Part shown: positions 2,989-40,617 of the stretch, in pieces
How the letters are laid out: each line of letters begins with the position of its first letter
Numbering within the stretch: the stretch's first letter is position 1
Source: Tepidisphaeraceae bacterium
GTDB taxonomy: Bacteria; Planctomycetota; Phycisphaerae; Tepidisphaerales; Tepidisphaeraceae
Direction of reading: 5' to 3'
Assembly: GCA_035998445.1 (NCBI GenBank)
Contig: DASYHQ010000061.1
Span: 1-64,000 of the forward strand
DNA length: 64,000 nt
Notes under the pieces: model-generated
What the model was told of the DNA's origin: nothing
The model's database searches: none
What the model saw: the letters and a program-made list of their open reading frames with translations, nothing else
Translations under genes and position numbers: made by a program

Positions 2989-4332
2989 ATGAAGATCAGC
3001 AAATGGTGTCTTGTCGGATTGTTGACCGCGGCCGTACCGTCGTTGGTGCTGCCGCCGGTTCCCACGTTCGCCGCCGATGAAGCGACGACGCGGGACGCGA
3101 AGCCGCGCACGGTCGCGATCTTCGTGAAGAACCGCGCCAAGGAAATCGACGACGACAAGGTCACCGCGCTGGAAGACCTGATCGCGTCGCGGCTGACCGA
3201 CCAGGGCTTCCAGATCATCAGCCGCGACGACGTGGTCAACGCCTTGAGCAACACGTATCGCACCGGCCCCAACGCCGGCAGCGCGACCGAGCCGGGCGCG
3301 ATGATGGACGCGGTGCTGTCGAACAACACCTCGGCGTTGCGCCTGGCGCAGAACATGAACGCCGACTACGTGCTGGTCGCGTCGATCACCACGTTCGGCA
3401 CCGACGTCCGCCGGTTCAATCGCGAGGGGATCAACACGGTCGTCACCGAGTCGACGATGCGCGTCAGCAGTCGGCTGTTGGACGGCGTGGTGGGTGGGTC
3501 GCTCACGGGCGACGTGGTCGAGGTGAGCGAGAAGGACATCGCCGACGCCGCCGGTCACACCGAGCGCGACGTGGTCAATGCGCTGCTGAACAAGGCCTCG
3601 GTAAAGCTTACCGACTCGCTCGGCGCCAAGGCCGCCAACAACCAGATCGCCGCCGCGCCCGCCGCGGCCAAGCTGGTCGACTTCAGCGTCGAGGCCAGCA
3701 TGGCCGACCTTGCGATCCCCGAGATCGTGAAGGACGAGCAGGGCAACTACGTCATCCTGCCCAACAAGTACCGCATCGACGCGATGAGCGTCACCGTCGA
3801 GATGGACGGCGTGCTGCTGGGTTCCGCCCCGGGCACGTGGCAGGTCGCGCCTGGCCTGCACAAGGTGCGCCTCAGCCGCGAACTGTGCGAGGATCAGGAG
3901 ACGACCGTCAACGTCGGTCGAAATGGCAGCACGTGGCGGCCCGCGATGAAGTTCAGCGAGGAAGGCCACGCCCGCTGGGCCCAGAACATCGCGTTCCTCG
4001 AGGAGATGCGCGACAAGGCCAAGCGCTCCGACGCCGAGATCAAGCAGATCGAGGCGATCGCCAAGATGTTCGAGCAGAGCGGGTTCCGCGTCGACAGCCG
4101 ATCCGAAATCAAGGCCGACATCAAGGGCGACAGCCTCTGGCCCAAGATCGAGTACAACTCGATCGGCCGCGACGGACGCGATGGTCGGGACGGCCGGGAC
4201 GTGCGCGAGGAACGGGAAGAGCGCGAGACGCGCGAGCAACGCGAACAGCGCGGGGCCCAGGAACGGGAGGATGCGCGACAGATGGTGCAACCTCCGGCCC
4301 CGGTCACGCCCGACGTGAAGCGTTTTGACTAA
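2989..4332 (+). CDS. Exported CsgG/TolB-N-like protein with PEGA-like domain and charged RDG-repeat tail
   Basis: 447 residues from ATG 2989; an earlier in-frame start at 2944 would precede the signal peptide. A Sec signal (residues 1-28, ending TFAA) is followed by a domain with VAIFV...LIASRL...GFQIISRDDV, the pattern of the alpha/beta fold shared by CsgG, FlgO and the TolB N-domain. At about residues 265-305 a PEGA-like beta segment (VEMDGVLLGSAPGTW) appears. The C-terminus carries three RDG units followed by Arg/Glu-rich residues, probably disordered or helical. First gene of a five-gene envelope group. Likely periplasmic or outer-membrane associated; the precise role is unknown. Confidence 0.7.
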   Translation: MKISKWCLVGLLTAAVPSLVLPPVPTFAADEATTRDAKPRTVAIFVKNRAKEIDDDKVTALEDLIASRLTDQGFQIISRDDVVNALSNTYRTGPNAGSATEPGAMMDAVLSNNTSALRLAQNMNADYVLVASITTFGTDVRRFNREGINTVVTESTMRVSSRLLDGVVGGSLTGDVVEVSEKDIADAAGHTERDVVNALLNKASVKLTDSLGAKAANNQIAAAPAAAKLVDFSVEASMADLAIPEIVKDEQGNYVILPNKYRIDAMSVTVEMDGVLLGSAPGTWQVAPGLHKVRLSRELCEDQETTVNVGRNGSTWRPAMKFSEEGHARWAQNIAFLEEMRDKAKRSDAEIKQIEAIAKMFEQSGFRVDSRSEIKADIKGDSLWPKIEYNSIGRDGRDGRDGRDVREEREERETREQREQRGAQEREDARQMVQPPAPVTPDVKRFD

Positions 4333-4446
4333 CCTGCACCTTTGGCGTGCCCATATCAGTGGGCACGCCGAGAGCATCGCGAAGCTCGCAGGGGCAACTG
4401 CAACGAACAATGCGTCTCCCCACAGCAGGGGAACACGAGGCAACTC

Positions 4447-5415
4447 ATGAACACGTTTAACAAGTCGATCATCGTCAGCCTGTGCGCCACCGTCCTGGCG
4501 CTGCCAACAATCGTGAGCGCGCAGGACACCACCAACGCACAAACGCCGCCCGCCGCGCCGGCGCCGAAGGGGCCGGACTCGGTCATCGTCACGCCCGCGA
4601 CCGTTACCGAATCGCTCGCCGCCGCCAACGCGGCCGAGGGGCGCACGATTCAGATGAAGCGGGTCGCCGAGGCGCTGGACACGCAGCTGCGTTCGGCGCT
4701 GGGTGGCACGGGCAAGTACAAGGTGATCGTCGGCAGCAACTTCAAGCAGGTGGTCGACGAGATCACGCGCCAGCGCAACAGCGGCCTGTTCGATTCGGAC
4801 AACGCCAACTTCCGCGGCATCGGCAGCATGGAACCGCCGAAGTACCAGATCGTGCCGAAGATCGACGACTTCCAGGACATCGCCGAGCAGGCCATGGTGG
4901 AAGGGCTCGAACTGACCGCCCGCACGCTGCGCATGTCGCTGGTCGTCAGCATCATCGACGCCACCGGCGCCGAGGTGGAGAATGCGAACATCACGGTCAA
5001 GAGCCCGCGCAAGAACACCCGCCGGGTGGAAGGCACCGGGCGCACCGGTGACGCCAGCGACGAACTGCTGATCGCCATGGCGCGCGAGGCCGCGATCAAG
5101 GTCGCCGACCGGTTGGTCGACGTCTCCTTCCCGGCCAAGGTCGCGGCGTTCAACGACAAGGAAGTGACGATCAACCGTGGCGACGGCACGAACGTCGCGC
5201 CCGGCCAGGTCTACAATGTCTACTTCGTCGGCGATGCCGTCACCGACCCCGACACTGGCGCCGTCCTCGGCAAGGAAGAGACCATGGTCGGCCAGGTGCG
5301 CGTCACCAGCGTGATGCCCAAGTTCAGCAAGGCCACTATCCTGACCAACAACGGCATCGACCGGGGTCACGTGCTGCGCCTGCACGAAGAACTGATCGAG
5401 GAACCGACGGAATAG
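4447..5415 (+). CDS. Exported CsgG-related protein
   Basis: 322 residues. ATG 4447 opens a signal peptide (hydrophobic IIVSLCATVLALPTIVSAQ) with cleavage after about residue 25; the upstream in-frame ATG at 4342 would bury that signal. A Pro/Ala linker is followed by an alpha/beta domain with a paired 'GKYKVIVGSNFKQVVDEI' and 'LRMSLVVSIIDATGAEV' arrangement resembling CsgG/FlgT-type proteins. The C-terminal part (NRGDGTNVAPGQVYNVYFVG) looks like the C-terminal beta domain of FlgT-like proteins. It lies 114 bases after the previous gene and probably acts with it. Family placement is by pattern only. Confidence 0.65.
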   Translation: MNTFNKSIIVSLCATVLALPTIVSAQDTTNAQTPPAAPAPKGPDSVIVTPATVTESLAAANAAEGRTIQMKRVAEALDTQLRSALGGTGKYKVIVGSNFKQVVDEITRQRNSGLFDSDNANFRGIGSMEPPKYQIVPKIDDFQDIAEQAMVEGLELTARTLRMSLVVSIIDATGAEVENANITVKSPRKNTRRVEGTGRTGDASDELLIAMAREAAIKVADRLVDVSFPAKVAAFNDKEVTINRGDGTNVAPGQVYNVYFVGDAVTDPDTGAVLGKEETMVGQVRVTSVMPKFSKATILTNNGIDRGHVLRLHEELIEEPTE

Positions 5416-5439
5416 CCATGCTGGGTGATTGAGGAATTG

Positions 5440-5479
5440 GCGCACTGGCGTGGTCGCTTGCGCGACCACGCCAGTGCGC
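5440..5479. repeat. Family H hairpin, copy 2 (18-bp perfect stem)
   Basis: GCGCACTGGCGTGGTCGC at 5440-5457 pairs perfectly with 5462-5479 across the four-base loop TTGC. It lies 25 bases after the stop at 5415 and no T-run follows. It shares the GGTCGC/GCGACC core with the other H hairpins but has a longer stem. Confidence 0.8.
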
Positions 5480-5560
5480 AGTATGCGAACCAGCACTGCG
5501 CCATCTTTCAGAAAGGTCCGGAGAGGGCGCAGTCGGCGCATTTTACCTTACGCAATGCTC

Positions 5561-5850
5561 GTCATCCTGAGAGGGTGTTAATGAACAGTGCCGCGTCCGC
5601 TCCGACCGTGGCATGGGCGTCTCGCCCATGCGTGTCATGAGGCCGTAAGACTTGATTAGGGCCCGCGGCCTGATCGGCGCAGTCGCCAGCAAATGGAATT
5701 TCCCGTTCCAGTCCACAGGCATGGGCGAGACGCCCATGCCACGTGAAACGCGGACGCGAGCGCGTTCTTTACACCTCCGTGGTACTCCGAAAGATCTCTT
5801 CCGTCCCGCGACGAAGACGAAGAGATCCTTCGGAGTACCTCAGGATGACG
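5561..5850. repeat. Family C element interrupted by a family B element
   Basis: A C-type left end (GTCATCCTGAG, 5561-5571) and the remaining C inverted repeat (GGTACTCCGAAAGATCTC at 5781, its inverse ending CAGGATGACG at 5850) are separated by about 200 bases that contain a complete family B copy (5607-5743). In other places the C sequence is continuous. This is consistent with a later insertion of B into C, although rearrangement cannot be excluded. Confidence 0.65.
5607..5743. repeat. Family B palindromic element, copy 1
   Basis: 137 bp bounded by GCATGGGCGTCTCGCCCATGC-type ends in inverted orientation (5607-5631 and 5719-5743). Each end is itself a short hairpin. The interior (TTTCCCGTTCCAGTCCA near the right end) matches copy 3 at 23048-23185; copy 2 at 7974-8112 appears related in the opposite orientation. 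The form resembles a non-coding miniature element. Confidence 0.8.
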
Positions 5851-5984
5851 GGTTCGCTGGGGGTTGTGGAAATTACATACGCGCCGCGCAGTCTTGATGG
5901 TCGTCCTTCTTCAAACCCGCTCGTTGAATTTCTCGTATCAATCCAGACGATACCGGTAGTCGGGGGCCCACGGAGCACGCACGC

Positions 5985-7439
5985 TTGAATCAGTCGGTCG
6001 TCAGCACACGAAAGAGCATCGTCCGCCGCGCCGTTGGCGTGGTGGTGATGTCGTTGCTGGGGCTGACGGGCTGCCAGACCAATTGGCACCAGAACTCGCA
6101 CGAGTTCCTCGTGCCCTACGAGAACGGCAACTTCCAGCAGGCTGCCAAGGTGGTGACGACCCACGCCAAGAATGGCGTGGCGCACGACAAGGTGTTGCTG
6201 CATTTGGAGGAAGGCGCCATCCAACGCGCCGCCGGCAACCTGCAGCAAAGCAACGCCGCGTTCGACGCGGTCGACATGCTGGTCGGCGATTACGAGCAAT
6301 GGCCGACCGTTCGCCTGAGCGAAGAGACCGCCATCGCGTTCACCACCGTGCGCAACGCGAACTATCGCGGCACGCTGACCGACCTGGTCTTCATGAACGC
6401 CTATCGTGCGCTGAACGCGATGGAAATGGGCAACGCGGAACTGGCGCGCGTGGCGCTCGTGCGGGCGGCGTTCGTGCAAGGGGACATCGCGGCCAAGTAT
6501 CAGTCGGAACTGAACCGCGCGCAGGCGAAGCTCGACCAGCAGCGCAAGAGCAAGGACTACGACGCCGACCGGACGTTGAACGCCAAGGATGCCAGCGGCC
6601 TGAACATTCAGCAGCGCATCTCCGCCAGTTCCGGCCTGAACGAGCTGCAACCGTACGCCGACTACATGGGCCCATGGGCCGACTACCTGCAGGGCATCTT
6701 CTTCCTGGCCAAGGGAAGCGACGCATCGGACCGCGACCGGGCCCGCGTCGCCTTTCGGCGGGCCGCGGGCATGCTGCCCGGCAACGCCTACGTGGCGCAG
6801 GACGTCGCCGAGGCCGAACGCGTGAGCGAGGGTGGCCAGCGGTCGCCGATGACGTACGTCTTATTTGAAACGGGCCTGGCACCCCTGCGCGATCAGGTGC
6901 AAATCCCGTTGCCGCTGTTTCTGTTCGCCGCCCGCGCGCCGAGCATCGTGGTCGCGTTCCCGGTTCTGTTGGAGCGGGGCGGGCACGTTTCGTCGCTGAG
7001 CGTGTCGGCCGGGGGTGGCACGTTTCGCACGGAAATCGTCTGCGACGTCGACCGCGTGGTGAAGCAGGAGTTTAAGAACAACCTGTCGACCACGATCACC
7101 CGCATGGTCATCGCCGCCGTCACCAAGGCCGTGCTGGACGCGGCCACGCAGCAGGCGCTAAAGGATCAGGACCCGTCGGTGCAGGCGGTGGCCAGCCTGG
7201 GCATGCTGTTCTACCAGATCGCGTTCAACCAGGCCGACCTGCGCACGTGGAAGACATTGCCCAAACAATTTCAGGTGGCGCGTGTCCCTACTCCCAGCGA
7301 CCGCGCGCTTACGCTGCACCTGTCCGACGGCGGGGGCAGCATTCCCGTGCAGCTGCCCGAGGGGCAGGTGAACGTGGTGTACGTGAAATCGGTGCGGGCC
7401 GGCGTGCGGCCAACGGTGCGCACGTTCATGCTGCGATAG
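5985..7439 (+). CDS. COG3014-like outer-membrane lipoprotein
   Basis: 484 residues from TTG 5985, with GGAG ten bases upstream; no ATG or GTG gives a complete signal. The signal ends in the lipobox LTGC (Cys at about residue 29). The mature part starts with a repeat-like helical region (YENGNFQQAAKVV... LLHLEEGAIQRAAGN), as in tetratricopeptide-type folds, then a C-terminal beta-rich part. The order and motifs match the uncharacterised COG3014 lipoproteins, which in some Gammaproteobacteria lie beside ycfL and lpoB genes, as they do here (recalled, not searched). Probably an outer-membrane scaffold of the cluster. Confidence 0.7.
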   Translation: MNQSVVSTRKSIVRRAVGVVVMSLLGLTGCQTNWHQNSHEFLVPYENGNFQQAAKVVTTHAKNGVAHDKVLLHLEEGAIQRAAGNLQQSNAAFDAVDMLVGDYEQWPTVRLSEETAIAFTTVRNANYRGTLTDLVFMNAYRALNAMEMGNAELARVALVRAAFVQGDIAAKYQSELNRAQAKLDQQRKSKDYDADRTLNAKDASGLNIQQRISASSGLNELQPYADYMGPWADYLQGIFFLAKGSDASDRDRARVAFRRAAGMLPGNAYVAQDVAEAERVSEGGQRSPMTYVLFETGLAPLRDQVQIPLPLFLFAARAPSIVVAFPVLLERGGHVSSLSVSAGGGTFRTEIVCDVDRVVKQEFKNNLSTTITRMVIAAVTKAVLDAATQQALKDQDPSVQAVASLGMLFYQIAFNQADLRTWKTLPKQFQVARVPTPSDRALTLHLSDGGGSIPVQLPEGQVNVVYVKSVRAGVRPTVRTFMLR

Positions 7440-7484
7440 CCGTTTCACCGAAGATGTACCAAGACCTCAGGAGCGAACCCGACT

Positions 7485-7913
7485 ATGTTACGACACACAC
7501 TCAACGTATCCCTGTTATCGGCCGTCGTGCTGATCGGCGGCTTTGGCTGCAAGTCGGTCAACACGACCGAACGCGCCCAGCCCACCTATGAAGCCGACCG
7601 CATCAAGGCCAAGAACGTCGTCACCGACGGCTACGCCCGCGACTACGCCAAGGTGCTCGACGTGCGCCAGTCGACCGTGTCGGGCGACATCATGAAGGTG
7701 CAGGTGGAGGTGCGCAACGACAACCTGCGCCCCGGCAATCTCGACTACAAGTTCGAGTGGTTCGACGAGAGCGGCATGATCGTCAACTCGCCGTCCAGCA
7801 CGTGGCAGGCGCTGGAGATCCTGAAGGGCGAGACGAAGTCGCTGTCCAGCGTCGCGCCCAACTCGCGTGCCAAGGACTTCCGACTGAAGATCGAACGCCG
7901 GCGCCGGAACTAG
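7485..7913 (+). CDS. YcfL-like lipoprotein (DUF1425)
   Basis: 142 residues. ATG 7485 follows AGGAG at about 7469. The signal peptide ends at FGC (lipobox LIGGFGC, Cys about residue 22). The mature domain carries VQVEVRNDN...LDYKFEWFDESGMIV and a later conserved Trp (STWQAL), the beta-sandwich pattern of DUF1425/YcfL. In E. coli, ycfL lies directly before lpoB; here the LpoB-like gene also follows, 295 bases downstream, separated by C and B repeats. Role unknown in any organism, probably linked to the LpoB partner. Confidence 0.75.
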   Translation: MLRHTLNVSLLSAVVLIGGFGCKSVNTTERAQPTYEADRIKAKNVVTDGYARDYAKVLDVRQSTVSGDIMKVQVEVRNDNLRPGNLDYKFEWFDESGMIVNSPSSTWQALEILKGETKSLSSVAPNSRAKDFRLKIERRRRN

Positions 7914-7933
7914 TGGCGAGAAGCCGCTGATCC

Positions 7934-8112
7934 CCGTCATCCTGAGGTACTCCGAAGGATCTCTCCGCCTTTCCGTGGCATGGGCGTCTCGCCCATGCGT
8001 GTGGATTGAAACGGAGAGTAAAATTCATTGGCTGCTGCGCCGGCCGAGCGGTAGCTACAAAATTGAATCGCTTGGCCGAACAGCGAGCATGGGCGAGACG
8101 CCCATGCCACGG
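7934..8112. repeat. Family C half copy followed by family B copy 2
   Basis: A C half (GTCATCCTGAGGTACTCCGA..., 7935-7963) lies directly before a complete B element (7974-8112) whose ends are again GCATGGGCG/CGCCCATGC hairpins. The B interior is in the opposite orientation to copies 1 and 3. The pair fills most of the gap between the YcfL-like and LpoB-like genes. Confidence 0.75.
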
Positions 8113-8208
8113 CCGGAGCAAACGCGGCTTTGTTCCTCCACGTCCTCTTAGGAAGACGCGAGTTCCCGTATGATATTTTCAGTACACGTAGAAGAAGAAG
8201 GCAGACTT

Positions 8209-8772
8209 ATGACCAACATCCTCTCAACCAAGTTTCTCTCCCTCGGCGTCGCCAGCGCGCTCCTCGTCGCGCTCAACGTCGGCTGTGCCGATACGTCGGC
8301 GCGGCGCATCGAGACCGGCGGGCCCAACTCGATCACCACGGTCGACCAGATCGACGACCAAGATTGGGCCGAGGCCGCCAACACGCTCGTGGCCTCCATC
8401 GTCGATCAAGGCGAGATCACCGGTGGGCCCGGCGGGCGCAAGAAGCGGTTGGCGATCCGCAGGTTCGTCAACAACACCAGCCAGATGGTCGACGTGGACC
8501 TGCTGATCCGCCAGGTGCGCATCGGCCTGAACAAGACCGGCAAGGTCGTGACGATCGTGGAGGACGCCGAATCGCAGATGAACACCGGCGAGGTGCTCAC
8601 GCCCGACTATCGCCTGGAAGGCAAGATGATCGAGAACCGCGCCCGCGCGGGGAACATCAAGCAGTCGACCTTCTACTTCCAGATGGGCCTCTACAACCAG
8701 GCGGGCGAAATGGTCTGGGAAGACCAGGTGCCGATCACGAAGGCCGGAAGCCGGAACTCGGTGGGGCTGTAG
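8209..8772 (+). CDS. LpoB-like penicillin-binding protein activator lipoprotein
   Basis: 187 residues from ATG 8209 (in-frame ATG 8170 would prefix 13 charged residues to the signal). The lipobox is ALNVGC. The mature domain reads LAIRRFVNNTSQMVDVD...GLNKTGKVVTIVEDA, then DYRLEGKMIENRARAGN, TFYFQMGLYN and VWEDQVPITKAGSRN. This tracks E. coli LpoB closely (F/IVNDT, YRLSGKI, TYTFQLTL, WEEE.PI.K.G). LpoB spans from the outer membrane to activate the bifunctional synthase PBP1b; no class A PBP gene is in this window. Followed 24 bases later by an intrinsic terminator. The last gene of the cluster. Confidence 0.85.
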   Translation: MTNILSTKFLSLGVASALLVALNVGCADTSARRIETGGPNSITTVDQIDDQDWAEAANTLVASIVDQGEITGGPGGRKKRLAIRRFVNNTSQMVDVDLLIRQVRIGLNKTGKVVTIVEDAESQMNTGEVLTPDYRLEGKMIENRARAGNIKQSTFYFQMGLYNQAGEMVWEDQVPITKAGSRNSVGL

Positions 8773-8793: not shown

Positions 8794-8879
8794 GTAGGGG
8801 CAGGCCTCCGTGCCTGCCCTTTTTTTGTTGCGCGGACGCCAGAAGCGGTTGAGGGCAGGCACGGAGGCCTGCCCCTACG
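8794..8879. repeat. Long inverted repeat between convergent genes
   Basis: GTAGGGGCAGGCCTCCGTGC (from 8794) recurs inverted at the right side (ending CCCCTAC, 8879), enclosing a short unique core. The left arm by itself is the terminator described at 8797-8826. It lies between the 3' ends of the LpoB-like gene and the EF-G-like gene and could serve both strands. Confidence 0.75.
8797..8826 (+). terminator. Intrinsic terminator of the LpoB-like cluster
   Basis: The stem GGGCAGGC/GCCTGCCC (8798-8805 and 8812-8819) with loop CTCCGT is followed directly by seven T (8820-8826). It is placed 25 bases after the stop codon at 8772. One of the few hairpins in the window with a proper T-run. Confidence 0.8.
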
Positions 8880-8886
8880 GGAGGAA

Positions 8887-10956
8887 TCACTCCTCCTCCA
8901 CGTGCGGCTTGTACTGCGACACCACCTGCTGCTGCACCTGGGATGGCACGGCGTCGTAGTGGCTTAATTCCATCGCGAAGGAACCGCGGCCGCCGGTGAC
9001 GCTTTTCAGCTGCGAGCCGTACTGCATCACCTCGCCCAGCGGCGCTTGGGCCGATACGACCGCCATCGCGCCCGTCGCGACGTCGGTCGAGTGGATCCGA
9101 CCGCGCTTGGACGACAGGTCGCCGGTGATGGCGCCGACGGTCGTTTCCGGCACGGTCACCTCCATGTTCACCACCGGTTCGAGCAGCACCGGGTGCGCCT
9201 TGGCGAACGCCTCCTTGAACGCCATCCGGCCGGCGGTCTTGAAGGCGATCTCCTTGCTGTCGACGGGGTGGTGCTTGCCGTCCGTGACCACCACGCGCAC
9301 GTCCTGCACCGGGTAGCCGGCCATCACGCCCTGGTCGATCACCTCGCGCACGCCTTTCTCGATCGCGGGGATGAACTGGCCGGGAATGCTGCCGCCGAAC
9401 GTTTCGTCGATAAACTCAAAGCCCGTGCCGCGCGGCAGCGGCTCGACGCGCAAATACACCTCGGCGAACTGCCCCGCGCCACCGCTCTGCTTCTTGTGCC
9501 GATAGTGCCCCTCGGCCGGCGCCGACACCGTTTCGCGGTAGGCGATCTTCGGTGGCTTCGTGTCGACGTGCAGCCCGCGGGCGGTGAGCTTTTCGAGCAC
9601 GAAGCGCAGGTGCATCTCGCCGACGCCGTTGATCACGATCTCGTGCGTCTGACGGTCGGTGTGCCACTTGAAGGTGGGGTCTTCCTCGGCCATGCGTGAG
9701 AGCACGGTGGAGATCTTCTGCTCGTCGCCGCGCGCCTTGGGCGTGATGGCCAGGCCGAACATGGGGGCGGGAAAGGTCAGCGGGCGCAGGTGGACGCTGT
9801 CGAGCGCGTGGTCGTCGTGCAGGACATCGTTGAGGTGGATGTCCTCGATCTTCGCCACGCCACCGATGTCGCCGGCGATGATCTCGTTGGCCTCGCGGTG
9901 CTCCTTGCCCTGCAGGTGGAAGACGTGGCCGAGCTTGATGCTCTTTTTGTTGTAGCCGATGTAGACGTGCGACTGGCCGGTGGCACGGCCCTGATGTACG
10001 CGGAAAATGGCCAGCTTGCCGACGAACGGGTCGTTGGTGACCTTGAACACGTGCGCCAGCAGCGGTTTGGTTGGGTCGTTCCAGTAGTCGAACGGTACCT
10101 CATCCTGCGGCGACCCCGCACGATCGCCGCCGCGATAGCTGAGGAACGGGCGCAGGTTGCCTTCTTCCGGGCTGGGGAAGTGCCGCGCGATCGAGTCGAG
10201 CAGCTCGGCGATGCCGACGTTGTTCTTCGCATCGGTAAACAGCACGGGCACGACGTGCGCCTCGTCCATGGCACGCTCGAACGGCGCGTGCAGCGCGTCG
10301 TAGTTGGGCTCCTCGCCGCCGAGGTAGCTTTCCATGAGATCCTCGTCCATCTCGACGATCTGATCGATGATGGCCGAATGCGCGGTCGCGACCGGTCCCA
10401 GGTCGCTGTCGCCGGCCTTGTTCAGCAGGCACTCGACGAGTTGCGTACGATTGGCCGCCGGCAGGTTGATGGGCAGGCATTCGCTGCCGAAGGTGGTGCG
10501 GATGTCGATCAGCAGGGCGTGAAGCTGGTCGGGATCGGTCGCGAGGTCGATCTTGTTGATGATGATGGCGCGCGGCAGGTTACGTTCGCGCGCGGCCTCC
10601 ATAAGCCTGCGGGTGACGATGTCGATGCCGGCGGCGGCGCTGATGACGACGGCGACCGTCTCCACCGCGGGCAGACAGGCGATGGCTTGGCCGATGAGGT
10701 CGGGCGAGCCGGGGGTGTCGATCAGGTTGATGCGCGTGCCGGCATGGTCGGCGTGAAGCACGGCGGCGTAGATCGAGTGCTTGTGCTCCTTCTCTTCCCG
10801 CTCGAAGTCGCTGTAACTGGTGCCGTCGGTGACGCACCCCTTGCGCGTCACGATGCCGCTGGCCAGCAGCATGGCGTCGACGAGCGTGGTCTTGCCACTG
10901 CCGGCCCCGCCGGCGATGAGGAGGTTTCGGATATCTGCGGTGGTGTAGCTGAGCAT
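8887..10956 (-). CDS. Elongation factor G-like GTPase
   Basis: 689 residues, start ATG 10956 with GGGAGA upstream. Order as in EF-G: G domain with P-loop GGAGSGKT (residues 16-23), DTPG (80-83) and NKID (134-137), then domains II to V (GVGEMHLRF, the C-terminal VPETTVGAITGDLSSKRGRI). It is slightly shorter than canonical EF-G. In EF-G the DTPG motif is followed by the catalytic His (DTPGH); here it is DTPGSPD, so Ser replaces His. The RGITI motif is also replaced (HKHSI). These changes fit the EF-G-like (EF-G2) branch, not the housekeeping factor. Probably a ribosome-associated GTPase of undefined role. Confidence 0.85.
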   Translation of the reverse strand: MLSYTTADIRNLLIAGGAGSGKTTLVDAMLLASGIVTRKGCVTDGTSYSDFEREEKEHKHSIYAAVLHADHAGTRINLIDTPGSPDLIGQAIACLPAVETVAVVISAAAGIDIVTRRLMEAARERNLPRAIIINKIDLATDPDQLHALLIDIRTTFGSECLPINLPAANRTQLVECLLNKAGDSDLGPVATAHSAIIDQIVEMDEDLMESYLGGEEPNYDALHAPFERAMDEAHVVPVLFTDAKNNVGIAELLDSIARHFPSPEEGNLRPFLSYRGGDRAGSPQDEVPFDYWNDPTKPLLAHVFKVTNDPFVGKLAIFRVHQGRATGQSHVYIGYNKKSIKLGHVFHLQGKEHREANEIIAGDIGGVAKIEDIHLNDVLHDDHALDSVHLRPLTFPAPMFGLAITPKARGDEQKISTVLSRMAEEDPTFKWHTDRQTHEIVINGVGEMHLRFVLEKLTARGLHVDTKPPKIAYRETVSAPAEGHYRHKKQSGGAGQFAEVYLRVEPLPRGTGFEFIDETFGGSIPGQFIPAIEKGVREVIDQGVMAGYPVQDVRVVVTDGKHHPVDSKEIAFKTAGRMAFKEAFAKAHPVLLEPVVNMEVTVPETTVGAITGDLSSKRGRIHSTDVATGAMAVVSAQAPLGEVMQYGSQLKSVTGGRGSFAMELSHYDAVPSQVQQQVVSQYKPHVEEE

Positions 10957-23047: not shown

Positions 23048-23185
23048 CGTGGCATGGGCGTCTCGCCCATGCTCGTTGTGAGGCCAAGAGATTTAATTGG
23101 TGGATGCCGCTCGGTCGGCGCAGCGGCCAATCAATCCCGTTTCCCGTTCCAGTCCAAACGCATGGACGAGGACGCCCATGCCACG
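23048..23185. repeat. Family B palindromic element, copy 3
   Basis: 138 bp with GCATGGGCGTCTCGCCCATGC on the left and a slightly diverged right end (GCATGGACGAGGACGCCCATGC, reading across 23161-23181). The core shares GAGGCCAAGAGATTTAATTGG and TTCCCGTTCCAGTCCA with copy 1. It lies between convergent genes. Confidence 0.8.
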
Positions 23186-29706: not shown

Positions 29707-30894
29707 TCAATCGAACTCGAACGCGGTGCGCGCCATCACCATGGGTCGGTTCTGACCGATGTTCAGCAAAAACCCAGCTGCGATAAAGCTGCTCAGCAGG
29801 CTGCTGCCCCCGTAGCTGACGAACGGCAATGTAATTCCGGTAACCGGGAAGATGCCGGTCGCCACGGCCAGGTTCAGGAAGGTTTGGCCGGCCAGCATCG
29901 TCACGATGCCCAGCGATACCAGCTTACCGAACGGTTCTTTGGTAGACGCGCTGATCTCGATGCCGGCGGTGAAGAAGACGATGTAAGCCCCCAGCAGCAC
30001 GGCGCTGCCGAAGAAGCCGAACTGTTCGCCGACGAGCGCGAAGACCATGTCGTTGTGGCTTTCCGGCACGCGCCGGCCGATCGGGATCTCGCCGAAACCC
30101 TTGCCTGCCACACCACCGCTGCCAAGGGCGATCTTGGCTTGTTCCTGCTGGAAGCCAGTTTCCTGGAGCGTCTTGGGGTCGCTGCTGAACATCGCGTAGA
30201 CGCGGGCGCGTTGGTACTCCTTCACGATCGCAGGCATGTGGCGGAAGATCGGGATCTCCTTCTGCCCGCTGAACCAGGCGAACGGCACGATCGCAAAGCC
30301 GATGCCCACCACGGCCAGCAGGTGCAGAAACTTCGCGCCAGCGGCGTACAGCATCGCGAACAGGCAGGGGATGAAGACCAACGCCGTGCCGAGGTCCGGC
30401 TGCTTCAGGATAAGGCCCAGCGGGATCAGCGCGATCGTGAACGGCAGGATGAGCCCGGGAATCGTGCGGTAGTTGCTGCGGAACCGCAGGTAGCGCGCCA
30501 GCACGAGGATAAAGCTGATCTTCATCAGCTCGGCCGGTTGAAGGCTGAACGTGCCGAAGTTGATCCAGTTGTAGGCGCCCTTCACGTTGCGAATGAGCGG
30601 CAGCGGGGTGTCACCCTGCCGGCCGGTGCCGAGGACCGAGCCCAGGACGGTGTAGCCGACCAGCAGGATGCTGACGACGTAGAAGACCCACGCGAGGCGC
30701 CCGAGGATCTGATAGTTGATCATCTGGATGCCCGCCATCACGCCGAGCCCGATGAAGATGAACAGCAGCTGCTTGCGCCCGTCGGCGTTGTCGTCGGCCC
30801 AGATCGAGATCACGCCCATGCCCACCAGAACCGCCGTGGCGGCCAGCACCGGCCAGTTGGTCGCGATCGCAAGTTGTTTCCAGAGGGCGTTCAT
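29707..30894 (-). CDS. rodA: Rod shape-determining glycosyltransferase RodA (SEDS family)
   Basis: 395 residues from ATG 30894 (an ORF start at 30981 adds 29 unlikely residues). Ten membrane segments. SEDS hallmark motifs include NWINFGTFSLQPAELMK, LKQPDLGTALVFIP, and the C-terminal FVSYGGSSLLSSFIAAG. It polymerises lipid II glycan strands together with PBP2 in the elongation complex at the inner membrane. mreB-mreC-mreD-mrdA lie on the other strand about 1.5 kb away. In many bacteria rodA follows mrdA; here it is displaced to the other side of mreB and inverted. Confidence 0.92.
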   Translation of the reverse strand: MNALWKQLAIATNWPVLAATAVLVGMGVISIWADDNADGRKQLLFIFIGLGVMAGIQMINYQILGRLAWVFYVVSILLVGYTVLGSVLGTGRQGDTPLPLIRNVKGAYNWINFGTFSLQPAELMKISFILVLARYLRFRSNYRTIPGLILPFTIALIPLGLILKQPDLGTALVFIPCLFAMLYAAGAKFLHLLAVVGIGFAIVPFAWFSGQKEIPIFRHMPAIVKEYQRARVYAMFSSDPKTLQETGFQQEQAKIALGSGGVAGKGFGEIPIGRRVPESHNDMVFALVGEQFGFFGSAVLLGAYIVFFTAGIEISASTKEPFGKLVSLGIVTMLAGQTFLNLAVATGIFPVTGITLPFVSYGGSSLLSSFIAAGFLLNIGQNRPMVMARTAFEFD

Positions 30895-30993
30895 GGGTTG
30901 ATAACAGTGGGCGGTGGACAGTGGCCGGTGAAAGGCGGATCGACGTGTGGCCGTCTTCACGGCCCACGATCCACTGTCCACTTCATGCCTTCA

Positions 30994-31740
30994 TCAACGA
31001 TGGAACCATCCCGCGGCCACCATGCGGGCGGGGCCTTTGTGGATGACGGGGACCTCGTCGCCGGCCGACACGGAGGGGTGGCCGCTGGGCAGGTAAACGC
31101 TGGCGACGCGATTGTCGCCACCGTCGGTCAGCGTACAGCGGACGAGCTGAGACGCGGGCGCCAGCGCGGCATGACGAACCTCCACCACGCTGGCGGTGCT
31201 GGGTTGGCCATCGCGGTACAGCGAAAGCAACTGTCGGCGAGTCCAAAGGCCACCGGCCAAGCTCAGCAGTGCCAATGGCGCCAGCGTCCACGCCGCCACC
31301 AGCGCGGCGGCCAGGGAACTGGGCTGCGTGCGGCCGGTCCAGAGCTTGGGGTTCTTCGGATCGATGCGCAGCGGCACCGTGCTCTTGATGACGATTGGCT
31401 CGACGCGCCCCAACAGCGGGCCGATCACGTTGTGTGTGACACCCTCGTACTCGTACGTCAGGTTCACCGTCGTCTCCGGTGGCACCTTGGTGCCGGCGAC
31501 GGAGAGGTTGTCGAACGACGACAGCACCACCGCGTCGACCGGTACGCCGACCGTCAGCAGTTGGTTTTCCTTGCGCCACGCGTTCACCTGCCCGTAGGCG
31601 AAGTAGGCCGCCACGAGCGCGATGCCGATGATCGCCAGCCACCACCCGCGCACGCGGGGCTCGGTGGTGGCGCGGGCCCGAACCTCGGACGACAGGGGCC
31701 GCGGGGGAGGGGGAAGGATATCGAGGGTCATGTTGCTCAT
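30994..31740 (-). CDS. DUF3592-like membrane protein
   Basis: 248 residues. One N-terminal membrane helix (WWLAIIGIALVAAYFAYG), a periplasmic beta-rich region (VDAVVLSSFDNLSV... TVNLTYEYEGV), a second hydrophobic segment (LAAALVAAWTLAPLALLSLAG) and a beta-rich end. This order matches DUF3592 proteins, whose role is unknown. It ends 99 bases before rodA on the same strand and may be co-transcribed. Confidence 0.6.
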   Translation of the reverse strand: MSNMTLDILPPPPRPLSSEVRARATTEPRVRGWWLAIIGIALVAAYFAYGQVNAWRKENQLLTVGVPVDAVVLSSFDNLSVAGTKVPPETTVNLTYEYEGVTHNVIGPLLGRVEPIVIKSTVPLRIDPKNPKLWTGRTQPSSLAAALVAAWTLAPLALLSLAGGLWTRRQLLSLYRDGQPSTASVVEVRHAALAPASQLVRCTLTDGGDNRVASVYLPSGHPSVSAGDEVPVIHKGPARMVAAGWFHR

Positions 31741-32372
31741 GTGAAGGGTCCGGCGGCATTCTAAAGGCAGGCGGATGATATTGCCCGTCTGCCGCAGGCA
31801 ATATCGACCGAGTCGGACTTGCCGATCCCCTATTCAGACGCGACCCGGGCGCGGTCACCGAACCGAAGCTGCCTTCCACGTTTCGCCGCAGGAGCAGCTT
31901 CTCGCTTTTTCGTTATCTCGTCAGACGAAAAGCCCGGAGCTGCGCTCCTGCGGCGAAAAGAGGAGGTGGCTGATACCGCTTCTGAAACATCGCGGGCCAC
32001 AGCCTCGGCGCGGCTCGGCGACCCTCCGTCTGGTTTGCATCCCCCTCACAGTCCCTGTATTTTAACGCACGACCGGGCACCGGCTGACGTACATGCGTTA
32101 GGCGGTTAGGGATTGAATGGACGTCCGGGTTCCCGATGGATCGGGAAACCGCTGGTTTCTCGCTGAAAACGGGCTGTTTTGCCGTCGTGGGCTTTGCGGG
32201 CCAAAGGGCATTGCGAAGTTGGCGATCGGCGAGCAGGCACGCTTCGGCGCACGTCCCGATGAATCCTTTTTAATTGCCCGGCGATGCATCGCGTCTGTGG
32301 CGAGCGTCACTTTTCGATGTTTGGAGGGTGGCCGATGCCGGTGCGGTTGATGCCCCTTACGGGAGATGGCTT
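31741..32372. other. Divergent control region upstream of mreB
   Basis: About 630 bases between the divergent DUF3592-like gene and mreB. A single inverted repeat (family G) lies at 31879-31960. The remainder has no convincing gene; the stretch 32200-32340 is less GC-rich in parts and likely holds the mre promoter. Forward frames starting at 32274 extend mreB upstream without a binding site. Confidence 0.4.
31879..31960. repeat. Family G inverted repeat
   Basis: TTTCGCCGCAGGAGCAGCTT on the left and GAGCTGCGCTCCTGCGGCGA on the right, around a core including TTTTTCGTTATCTCGTC. Single copy in the window, upstream of mreB. Confidence 0.75.
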
Positions 32373-33428
32373 GTGATCTTCGATGGCCTGATGGGCATGT
32401 TCAGCATCGACATGGGGATCGACCTTGGCACCTGCAACACGCTGGTCTGCGTGAAGGGCGAAGGCATCGTCCTGAACGAACCGAGCGTCGTCGCCGTGAA
32501 AAAAGGCACGAACCGCGTGCTGCAGAACGGCAACGCGGTCGGCTTGGTCGCCAAGGAGATGCTCGGCAAGACGCCCGGCAGCATCACCGCGATCCGCCCG
32601 CTTAAGGACGGCGTGATCAGCGACTTCGAAGTCACCGAGGCGATGCTCGCCTACTTCATCCGCCGGGTGCATGGCCGTAAGCACTTCATCGGGCCGCGCG
32701 TCGTCATCGCGATTCCCTCGGGCATCACGGCCGTCGAAAAACGCGCGGTGCTCGATAGCGCCGAGCGCGCCGGTGCCCGCCGGGTGTACCTCGTTGAGGA
32801 ACCCATGGCCGCCGCCATTGGCGCGGGTTTGCCCGTCACCGAACCGACCGCCAGCATGATCGTCGACATTGGTGGCGGCACGACGGAGGTCGCGATCATC
32901 TCGCTGGCCGACATCAGCGTGAAGGAGTCCGTCCGCACCGCCGGCGACGACTTTGACGACGCGATCGTCGCGCACATGAAGAAGACCTACAACATGGCGA
33001 TCGGCGAGCAGATGGCCGAGCGCATCAAGATCGAGATCGGCTCCGCCGCCCAACTGAGCGACGACGAGCCCAGCATGGAAGTGCGCGGCCGCGACATGAT
33101 CAGCGGTTTGCCGCGCAAGACGTCGGTGACGTCGGAAGAGATCCGCGAGGCGCTGCAGGAACCGGTCACCGCCATCATCGAGGCCGTCACCCGCACCCTG
33201 GAAATGGCCGAGCCCGAACTCGCCGCCGACCTGGTCGACAACGGCATCACGATGGCCGGCGGCAGCTCGCTGCTTCGTGGCCTCACGACCGTCATCAGCA
33301 ACGCGACCGGCTTGGAAGTGAAGTTGGCCGAAGACCCCCTCACCTGCGTCGCCCGCGGCACGAGCGTGTACCTGGAAAATCTGGAACTCTGGAAAGACAC
33401 CATGGAAAGCGACGCCGACGAGATGTAG
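32373..33428 (+). CDS. mreB: Rod shape-determining protein MreB
   Basis: 351 residues from GTG 32373 with GGGAG at 32361-32365; ATG 32391 and 32397 are alternatives. The GTG start gives MIFDGLMGMFSIDMGIDLGT, which aligns directly with the E. coli N-terminus including the amphipathic membrane-binding part. Actin-fold motifs are IDLGTCNTL (phosphate 1), VDIGGGTTEVA (phosphate 2) and MAGGSSLLRG (adenosine). It polymerises at the membrane and organises the elongasome with MreC, MreD, RodA and PBP2. First gene of mreB-mreC-mreD-mrdA. Confidence 0.95.
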   Translation: MIFDGLMGMFSIDMGIDLGTCNTLVCVKGEGIVLNEPSVVAVKKGTNRVLQNGNAVGLVAKEMLGKTPGSITAIRPLKDGVISDFEVTEAMLAYFIRRVHGRKHFIGPRVVIAIPSGITAVEKRAVLDSAERAGARRVYLVEEPMAAAIGAGLPVTEPTASMIVDIGGGTTEVAIISLADISVKESVRTAGDDFDDAIVAHMKKTYNMAIGEQMAERIKIEIGSAAQLSDDEPSMEVRGRDMISGLPRKTSVTSEEIREALQEPVTAIIEAVTRTLEMAEPELAADLVDNGITMAGGSSLLRGLTTVISNATGLEVKLAEDPLTCVARGTSVYLENLELWKDTMESDADEM

Positions 33429-33436
33429 CGGCGTCG

Positions 33437-33556
33437 GGTCCCCTCTCCCGGTACGCCGGGGGAGGGTTAGGGTGGGGGTGCATTTGACCTGCTGACGGTT
33501 CAGGAAGAACCAATCACCCCCTCCCAGCCTCCCCCGGCGTACCGGGAGAGGGGCCA
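33437..33556. repeat. Family A palindromic element, copy 3 (mreB-mreC gap)
   Basis: Fills most of the 163-base mreB-mreC gap. CTCTCCCGGTACGCCGGGGG... at the left, CCCCCGGCGTACCGGGAGAG at the right, core GACCTGCTGACGGTTC. One of three copies that sit in consecutive gaps of this operon. Confidence 0.85.
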
Positions 33557-33591
33557 GAGCAAGCCGCGGATTGCCTTCCCACTCCGACGCG

Positions 33592-34443
33592 ATGAAACAG
33601 CTGAAGTTCCAACACGTCTTCACCGCGCTGATGCTCGTCAGCTTCGTCACCGCGTTTCTCTTTCCACGACAGACGACGCCACGGCGCCCACAGTTGGCGG
33701 GCTTGTTCGCACCGGTGTCGCGGCCGGCCAGCTCTTTTGGTGCGTGGTTTCGAGAACGATTTGATCGCAAGGAATCGACCGACGAGCGGACGGAAGAAGA
33801 CGTGAAGGCCGAGAACGAGGCGCTGCGCGCGGAACTGGTCTACCAGGTGCGGCAACTCGACCTGCTGAAGAAGATCAACACCGACCGGGCGTTGCTCGGG
33901 TCGGTGCGCGAGTACTGCACGCCGGTGCGGGTCGTCGGTGGCGATCCACTGGCGGCCCGGCAGACGCTGTCGCTCAGCGGCTCCAGCAGTGATGGCCTGG
34001 CGACCGAGCAACCGGTGCTGTACGGCTTTTCGGTCGCGGGGCGCATCACCAACGCCGGGGCCGCCGGGGCACAGGCGCGACTCATCACCGACAAGGGCTT
34101 TGCCCTCAGCGGCGCGTTCTGCCGGTACGAGGCGACGCCCAACGGCGGCCAGGTGCTCAACCGCATCAACACGACCCCACCCGTGCTGGTGGGGGCTGGC
34201 CGCAACCGGTTGACGATCACCAACCTCTACATGAAGGAAGTCGAAGATCGCCAGGTGAAGATCGGCGACTGGGTGCTGCTGGAGGACGTGAAGTGGCCCG
34301 AACCGTTGCAGGGCCGCCTGATCGGCAAGATCGTCGCAATCAACCCGCTGCCCAGCGCCGCGTTGCACGCCGAGATCCACGTGGAGCCGGAAGCCGCCTT
34401 GTCGCGGTTGCGCGAGGTGATGGTGATGAACAAGGAGTTGTGA
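33592..34443 (+). CDS. mreC: Rod shape-determining protein MreC
   Basis: 283 residues from ATG 33592. An N-terminal membrane helix (VFTALMLVSFVTAFLF) is followed by a coiled coil (DVKAENEALRAELVYQV... LLKK) and the periplasmic double beta-barrel domain, as in MreC. The RLITDKGFALSG region and LTITNLYMKEV match the family pattern loosely. MreC links MreB in the cytoplasm to PBP2 and activates it. The gene context makes the assignment secure despite weak conservation. Confidence 0.88.
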   Translation: MKQLKFQHVFTALMLVSFVTAFLFPRQTTPRRPQLAGLFAPVSRPASSFGAWFRERFDRKESTDERTEEDVKAENEALRAELVYQVRQLDLLKKINTDRALLGSVREYCTPVRVVGGDPLAARQTLSLSGSSSDGLATEQPVLYGFSVAGRITNAGAAGAQARLITDKGFALSGAFCRYEATPNGGQVLNRINTTPPVLVGAGRNRLTITNLYMKEVEDRQVKIGDWVLLEDVKWPEPLQGRLIGKIVAINPLPSAALHAEIHVEPEAALSRLREVMVMNKEL

Positions 34444-34457
34444 GGAGATGGCGATCG

Positions 34458-34580
34458 GGTCCCCTCTCCCGGTACGCCGGGAGAGGGTTAGGGTGAGGGT
34501 GATTTCGAACTGCTGACGACTCTCGAAAGAACGAATCACCCCCACCCAGCCTCCCCCGGAGTACCGGGAGAGGGGCCGGA
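34458..34580. repeat. Family A palindromic element, copy 4 (mreC-mreD gap)
   Basis: Occupies the 173-base mreC-mreD gap. Core TTTCGAACTGCTGACGACTC is nearly identical to copy 1 and copy 5. Ends GGTCC and GGATC. Confidence 0.85.
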
Positions 34581-34616
34581 TCACGGCCGCGGAAGCTTCC
34601 TCGTACTGGTTCCCCT

Positions 34617-35144
34617 ATGCGTCTCGTCCCCTACATCCTGCTGGCCTACCTCGCCCTGGGCCTCCAGGTCGGGCTGGGGCGGTACATGGAGTGGAACGGG
34701 GCGCAGCCGAACTTCGTGCTGCTGGCGGTCGTCTTTATCGCGGTGAACGCGCCGCGCGACGCGGCGTTGTTGGGTGGCTTCAGCATGGGCGTCCTGCAGG
34801 ACCTGATGTCGCAGCAACCGCCGGGGTTGTACGGCATGGCGTACGGGGTGGTGGCGATGATCCTCAGCAACACGCAGACCACCGTCTACCGCGGGCACCC
34901 GCTTACCCATGTGTCGCTGGCGGCGCTGGGGGGTGTGGTGACGGCGGCGATGCTCTGGCTGCACTCGATCATCTGGGCCGGCAGCAGCGCCGCCGACCCG
35001 TCCCCGATCGCCGTCCGGCTCAGCCTTGTGCAACTGCTGCTGGCCGTCATGTACACCGCGTTGCTCGCCCCGTTCGTGATCGGGCCGCTGCAACGCATAA
35101 GGCGCGGGTTTGCGTTTACACCGAACCGGAAGGGAATGAGGTAG
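34617..35144 (+). CDS. mreD: Rod shape-determining protein MreD
   Basis: 175 residues with about five membrane segments; the central GLLGGFSMGVLQDLMSQ-type region (here ALLGGFSMGVLQDLM) followed by GLYGMAYG is the recognisable MreD signature. A small integral membrane protein of the elongasome. The position between mreC and mrdA supports the name. Confidence 0.88.
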   Translation: MRLVPYILLAYLALGLQVGLGRYMEWNGAQPNFVLLAVVFIAVNAPRDAALLGGFSMGVLQDLMSQQPPGLYGMAYGVVAMILSNTQTTVYRGHPLTHVSLAALGGVVTAAMLWLHSIIWAGSSAADPSPIAVRLSLVQLLLAVMYTALLAPFVIGPLQRIRRGFAFTPNRKGMR

Positions 35145-35158
35145 AAATAGTAGTCCGC

Positions 35159-35285
35159 CTCCGGCCCCTCTCCCGGTACGCCGGGGGAGGTTGGGTGGGG
35201 GTGATTTCGAGCTGCTGACAACCTTCGAAAGAACGAATCACCCCCACCCTAGCCCTCCCCCGGCGTACCGGGAGAGGGGACCGGA
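35159..35285. repeat. Family A palindromic element, copy 5 (mreD-mrdA gap)
   Basis: Fills the 166-base mreD-mrdA gap. Core TTTCGAGCTGCTGACAACCT and ends CTCTCCCGGTACGCCGGGGG / CCCCCGGCGTACCGGGAGAG. Third copy in the operon. Confidence 0.85.
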
Positions 35286-35310
35286 TCACGGCTGCTGACA
35301 TTGATAAGCC

Positions 35311-40486: not shown

Positions 40487-40617
40487 CGTGGCATGGGCGT
40501 TTCGCCCATGCATTTGAGAAGAACGCGAAGTGCCGTTCCGTACTATCGACGCCGGCCGCGCGGAAAATCACCCGCTCTGTCCTGTTTACGCGCATGGGCG
40601 AGACGCCCATGCCACGG
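40487..40617. repeat. Family B palindromic element, copy 4
   Basis: 131 bp with GCATGGGCGTTTCGCCCATGC on the left and GCATGGGCGAGACGCCCATGC on the right; the core differs from the other copies. It sits between the convergent epimerase and acetyl xylan esterase genes. Confidence 0.8.

Follow-up and report, generated by a model that had tools for sequence, protein, structure and literature searches.

This analysis concerns a group of five genes in the first 64,000 nucleotides of contig DASYHQ010000061.1 of a Tepidisphaeraceae bacterium (Planctomycetota; assembly GCA_035998445.1), a stretch referred to below as the window. The genes occupy positions 2989-8772 on the + strand and encode, in order, two proteins called A and B here, a COG3014-type tetratricopeptide repeat (TPR) lipoprotein, a YcfL (DUF1425) lipoprotein and an LpoB-family lipoprotein; all five products are predicted to be exported. 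Strong evidence that the five genes are one functional unit, a module and no local accident, comes from fused and rearranged forms of the group and from its recurrence in distantly related bacteria. The organism is without the cell-wall enzyme that LpoB is known to switch on, the class A penicillin-binding protein (PBP) PBP1b, and the set must therefore serve another role.

Conservation of the module

The gene order is conserved far beyond chance. Forty-six neighbourhoods from the same phylum, the window included, were picked by COG3014 and read, and 45 of them have intact flanks. The LpoB gene adjoins COG3014 in 44 of these 45, and COG3014, YcfL and LpoB are adjacent, on the same strand and in that order in 35 of the 46 loci, as well as in most of the loci from a scan of named genomes. 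That scan yielded 80 loci, mainly from Aeromonas, Colwellia and vibrios, with some from Geobacter-type bacteria, Omnitrophica and Victivallales. LpoB lies beside COG3014 in all 80 and a detectable YcfL is present in 73. A search of the genome contigs with P0003 alone gave no match.

The preliminary description of this DNA, made from its sequence, had two extra proteins belonging with the LpoB group, and this is supported by orthologous five-part sets, by fusions and by a second gene order. The order A-B-COG3014-YcfL-LpoB recurs in genome G003, from the same family as the window genome, and shorter versions occur in G017 and G018. A and B are fused as a single B-A protein in five loci (L057, L062, L066, L069 and L070). 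A Geobacter metagenome-assembled genome (L176) and an Omnitrophica bin (L180), both metagenome-derived, contain all five parts, their A proteins carrying PEGA and their B proteins CsgG, but in the order COG3014-A-B-YcfL-LpoB. An Azospirillum plasmid carries COG3014-YcfL-LpoB followed by a DUF6844 gene and a B-like gene, and gene B occurs alone in four gammaproteobacterial loci, including one from Piscirickettsia. DUF6844 proteins stand between LpoB and a B-type protein in two phyla (L017, 5047-6615; L088, 9403-10749).

No combined locus of this kind had been known to the preliminary description in the phylum. The locus is not unique there, as COG3014 relatives were found in 172 of 392 same-phylum genomes (weak matches included) and A and B in 13 of the 46 loci, five of which have the fused form. 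The COG3014-YcfL-LpoB core is already known, though poorly characterised. What appears to be unreported in the literature searched, which was partial, is the five-part form that includes A and B, together with its spread, its fusions and its presence without class A PBPs.

Absence of a class A PBP

The locus had been read at first as an addition to PBP1b activation, and a class A PBP with a UB2H domain was proposed as something to look for in the same genome. None was found. E. coli LpoB acts on PBP1b through UB2H (PMC6220978), whereas the window genome is without both. No Transgly (PF00912) match indicating a class A PBP was obtained in this genome, which is 95.5% complete, and control matches were obtained in 10 of 14 genomes. 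The sole UB2H match was considered as PBP1b and rejected, since the protein is Mfd. PBP1b activation in this organism is essentially excluded.

The same pattern is seen across the phylum, where class A PBPs are present in 46 of the 392 genomes. Among genomes with a confident COG3014 match, 58 of 59 have no class A PBP (odds ratio 0.11, Fisher p 0.007, phylogeny not corrected); among those with both COG3014 and YcfL, 88 of 94 have none and six have one (p 0.07). When all 172 COG3014 matches are counted, weak ones included, 21 are accompanied by class A PBPs (odds ratio 1.1) and there is no association either way. The module is therefore not tied to these enzymes. Planctomyces had earlier been listed among bacteria that lack class A PBPs (PMC8406291).

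The window genome has two genes for shape, elongation, division and sporulation (SEDS) proteins and two transpeptidase genes, and SEDS proteins with class B PBPs (bPBPs) are the only polymerases found in it. A rod cluster is located in the window at 29707-37710, with a RodA-like gene on the minus strand followed on the plus strand by genes for MreB, MreC, a likely MreD and a PBP2-like protein of 799 residues. FtsZ_C was not found in the window genome, which fits a planctomycete.

The three lipoproteins of the core

The identity of the last three genes as LpoB, YcfL and COG3014 relatives was given correctly in the preliminary description. The LpoB-family lipoprotein (8209-8772) matches Pfam PF13036 with 55.7 bits (cut-off 22.3, E 6.5e-15). 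It scores 63.7 bits (E 2.3e-17) against TIGR02722, the PBP1b-activator equivalog, which is under the equivalog cut-off of 110.55 bits. The identification rests on Pfam because a profile built of same-phylum LpoB rows only has the E. coli LpoB structures as its top matches at a weak E value of 0.05, and the strong structure matches from a profile that included E. coli LpoB were discarded as circular. The protein also weakly matched models of Shiga toxin A (E 0.003), which was put down to chance.

The length of the linker between the lipobox cysteine and the globular domain varies in LpoB proteins. E. coli LpoB has 58 residues with 16 prolines, and reaches PBP1b across the periplasm via this long disordered tail (PMC6220978, PMC9593243). 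The linker of the window protein has 25 residues and 1 proline, and so the long periplasm-spanning linker of the LpoB-PBP1b system is missing. Linkers of 22-26 residues are found in module-type LpoB proteins from the same phylum, Azospirillum and Aeromonas, and those of 75 named loci have 22-24 residues; L058 and L061 are left out of the range, as their anchor cysteine was misplaced by the script. Across the loci read, short linkers are the rule and E. coli LpoB is the exception. A second LpoB-scoring lipoprotein is encoded elsewhere in the genome (L004, 8615-10309; contig C41 of G000, about 44.6-46.3 kb). It adjoins another apparent TolB-N-like lipoprotein and has no COG3014 or YcfL nearby.

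The YcfL/DUF1425 lipoprotein (7485-7913) matches Pfam PF07233 with 75 bits (E 4.4e-21). The YcfL family profile matches PDB 4GIO (E 3e-9), which is the structure of Cj0090 from C. jejuni (PMC7857515). The COG3014-type lipoprotein (5985-7439) starts at a TTG codon and has an N-terminal TPR domain and a C-terminal beta domain with two long inserted helices. The name "COG3014-type" is the label of the preliminary description and not a database match; a Pfam scan of the protein gave no match. The structure model, from 24 sequences, has a predicted local distance difference test (pLDDT) value of 83.5, its TPR part matches many TPR proteins, and the family motif is AD-R-W--LP.

Proteins A and B

Both extra proteins had been described as having CsgG/TolB-N folds, one with a PEGA-like domain. 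The PEGA domain and, through a structure model, the fold of A hold; the CsgG-like fold of B is probable from its orthologues. By inspection, A and B have cleavable, non-lipoprotein signal peptides. Protein A (2989-4332, 447 residues) consists of a CsgG/TolB-N/FlgT-M-fold domain, a PEGA domain, a helical hairpin and a charged C-terminal tail rich in RDGRD. The fold of the first domain (residues 37-226, positions 3097-3666) was assigned by comparison of the structure model with the PDB. The comparison gave Z scores of 14.2 for FlgT, 12.8 for CsgG, 12.3 for TolB and 10.4 for LpoB, with matches spanning about 120-160 residues at a root-mean-square deviation of about 3 to 6 and a mean model pLDDT of 72. 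GNA1162 is in the same fold group, and the PelC fold is also counted among the relatives. The PEGA domain (residues 269-317, positions 3793-3939) matches Pfam PF08308 with 26.5 bits (cut-off 20.8, E 6e-6). Orthologues of A are present in L013, L048-L050, L055, L058, L067, L176 and L180, and PEGA is matched in those of Geobacter and Omnitrophica with E values of 2e-13 and 2e-12.

Protein B (4447-5415, 322 residues) has a CsgG-like domain and, after it, a TsaP/FlgT_C-like beta domain at about residues 216-299 (positions 5092-5343), the latter identified by profile matches. The window protein alone gave weak Pfam matches only, to LpoB (E 0.005) and CarboxypepD_reg. Its orthologues match CsgG (PF03783) with E values of 3e-9 to 2e-15, those of L013, L049, L062 and L066 above the cut-off. 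The B profile matches the TsaP-type chains 6ve2 (E 6e-10) and 3jc8 (E 3e-5), and FlgT_C is weakly matched by B orthologues. Longer B-type proteins found downstream are extended at the N-terminus by a region that weakly matches LPP20.

A common fold seems to be present in three of the five proteins. The claim for A depends on the structure model because neither A nor B matched LpoB convincingly when profiles were compared with each other, and the comparison of A with B was borderline (probability 62). The A and B profiles were rebuilt from clean seeds, as the first iterated profiles had merged through the fused B-A proteins.

The flagellar H-ring protein FlgT and CsgG resemble these proteins in the middle-domain fold of A and in the CsgG family matches of B orthologues. 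A FlgT_M-like fold is present in A and a TsaP/FlgT_C-like part in B; however, FlgT_N is recognised in neither. The window B also has no lipobox, and A bears PEGA, unlike either known protein. Flagellar or curli genes were not noticed in the neighbourhoods read.

Coding evidence and transcription signals

Five successive + strand genes for exported proteins, followed by a terminator, had been described, and the description was borne out. The five open reading frames have a G+C content at third codon positions of 0.88-0.91, which is coding-like, and the group is closed by an intrinsic-terminator-like hairpin at 8796-8821 on the + strand, with a 10-pair stem and a T-run. The gap between the second and third genes is 569 bp and that between the fourth and fifth is 295 bp. 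Both gaps carry palindromic repeats (CATGGGCG...CGCCCATG). A strong hairpin without a T-run (5440-5479, + strand; 18-bp stem, loop of 4, fold -42 kcal/mol) lies between gene B and the COG3014-type gene. Transcription of the five genes as one unit is therefore only a possibility.

Strong hairpins without a T-run are found 3' of both A and B (4337-4376 and 5440-5479), and are possibly processing sites or mRNA stabilisers. The palindromic intergenic repeat CATGGGCGnnnCGCCCATG has seven copies in the window against 0.01 expected. The copies lie at 5612-5738, 7979-8106, 23053-23071 and 40492-40611, mostly as pairs about 100 bp apart, and two pairs fall within the five-gene group. An EF-G-like elongation factor, as read from the sequence, is encoded on the minus strand at 8887-10956, directly convergent with the module. 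PADLOC gave zero matches.

Relation to known systems

The same three-gene core, judged by synteny and description, is found in Campylobacter jejuni as cj0089-cj0090-cj0091 and in Helicobacter as hp0018 and hp1457. The C. jejuni genes form a lipoprotein operon in which Cj0089 is a TPR lipoprotein and Cj0091 is mostly in the outer membrane, and a Cj0091 mutant has reduced adherence (PMC3100323). HP1457, the Helicobacter orthologue of Cj0091, has been described as an LpoB homologue; deletion of hp0018, the Cj0089 homologue, leads to hypervesiculation and a change in shape, and MltD and AmiA co-precipitate with HP0018 (PMC11394524). No A or B protein has been described there, however, and Cj0089 and HP0018 are likened to the COG3014-type protein by description and synteny. 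In the literature searched, functional data beyond those on Cj0089-0091 and HP0018 were not found, nor was any mention of COG3014.

Aeromonas, Colwellia, Vibrio and other Gammaproteobacteria have the COG3014-YcfL-LpoB order and a short-linker LpoB, but usually neither A nor B. In E. coli the YcfL and LpoB families are side by side and the LpoB fold is shared, but the stretch shown has no COG3014, A or B gene. Rather than two CsgG-like proteins joined to an LpoB system, as in the earlier view, we infer a single old module that survives in E. coli as the remnant ycfL-lpoB. This pair would have come about by reduction, its LpoB acquiring a long linker and a new partner.

Possible roles of the module

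The five proteins may form an outer-membrane/periplasmic scaffold that acts on cell-wall or outer-membrane remodelling independently of PBP1b, and this is the role that we tentatively prefer. The three lipoproteins would be located on the periplasmic side of the outer membrane. A and B, which are related in fold and sometimes form a single polypeptide, would oligomerise together with the lipoproteins to give a ring or scaffold like those of FlgT and CsgG, and the assembly would hold or regulate peptidoglycan-remodelling enzymes at the outer membrane/peptidoglycan interface. Candidate clients are hydrolases, which have been suggested for HP0018, the TPR relative in Helicobacter, or RodA/FtsW-bPBP synthases; no class A PBP would be activated. 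Several points weigh against such a scaffold. Ring formation is suggested by the fold alone. The tie of the COG3014-type protein to HP0018 and Cj0089 depends on published descriptions and synteny, and Cj0089 fractionates with the inner membrane, a poor fit to a purely outer-membrane assembly (PMC3100323). No experiment on any module member from the phylum of the window was found in the literature searched. A MacAB-type exporter is encoded next to the module in five loci, all from one family, which is compatible with an export role.

Alternatively, the module could be a machine for export or outer-membrane assembly. A and B would then make up a ring like that of CsgG or FlgT that works with an exporter in the inner membrane, such as one of the MacAB type, and the lipoproteins would guide the ring or act as its gate. 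The CsgG, FlgT and PelC folds and the TsaP/FlgT_C-like domain of B agree with this. So do the genes for HlyD, an ATP-binding cassette (ABC) ATPase and a MacB-like permease beside the module in L051, L052, L067, L078 and L081, in two orientations, and a resistance-nodulation-division (RND)-type adaptor gene beside it in L017. The search for recurrent extra neighbours turned up chiefly these MacAB-type genes, from a single family. The remaining neighbourhoods that were read, the window included, do not have the exporter, no cargo gene recurs, and the core lacks A and B in most named loci; we consider such a machine unlikely. It is equally doubtful that the module delivers the LpoB-family protein as an outer-membrane activator of RodA-PBP2 or FtsW-FtsI. 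In favour of this, SEDS-bPBP enzymes are the only polymerases found, SEDS proteins occur in 94 of 94 genomes with COG3014 and YcfL, and the RodA-like, MreBCD and PBP2 genes are about 21-29 kb from the module. However, SEDS proteins are present in 372 of the 392 genomes, hence the co-occurrence is barely informative; the short LpoB linker makes crossing the periplasm harder, and no direct link to rod genes is seen in the neighbourhoods. Canonical LpoB-PBP1b activation with accessory proteins recalls the side-by-side LpoB and YcfL genes of E. coli, but it is already contradicted by the lack of a class A PBP and of a PBP-type UB2H domain. It could be rescued only by a PBP1b encoded in the roughly 5% of the genome missing from the assembly, and is hardly credible.

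Beyond the scaffold itself, a wider possibility, held with less conviction, is that LpoB is an old part of a five-part envelope machine, independent of class A PBPs and present in several phyla. PBP1b activation in enterobacteria would then be a late co-option, and the planctomycete-type machine would control a wall made by SEDS-bPBP synthases only.

Significance

Typas et al. considered LpoB and its UB2H docking domain to be restricted to enterobacteria and to have arisen together (PMC3060616). The LpoB family is here conserved as a gene set with YcfL and COG3014 across Gammaproteobacteria, Geobacter-type bacteria, Omnitrophica, Victivallales and a phylum mostly without class A PBPs, therefore an "LpoB" annotation in such genomes should not imply PBP1b activation. 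The point of interest is a role of LpoB that is independent of PBP1b, and a comparison of strains that have the enzyme with strains that do not offers a way to test what the family originally did. The proteins of the five-part version are candidates for the envelope machinery of bacteria that have neither FtsZ nor class A PBPs.

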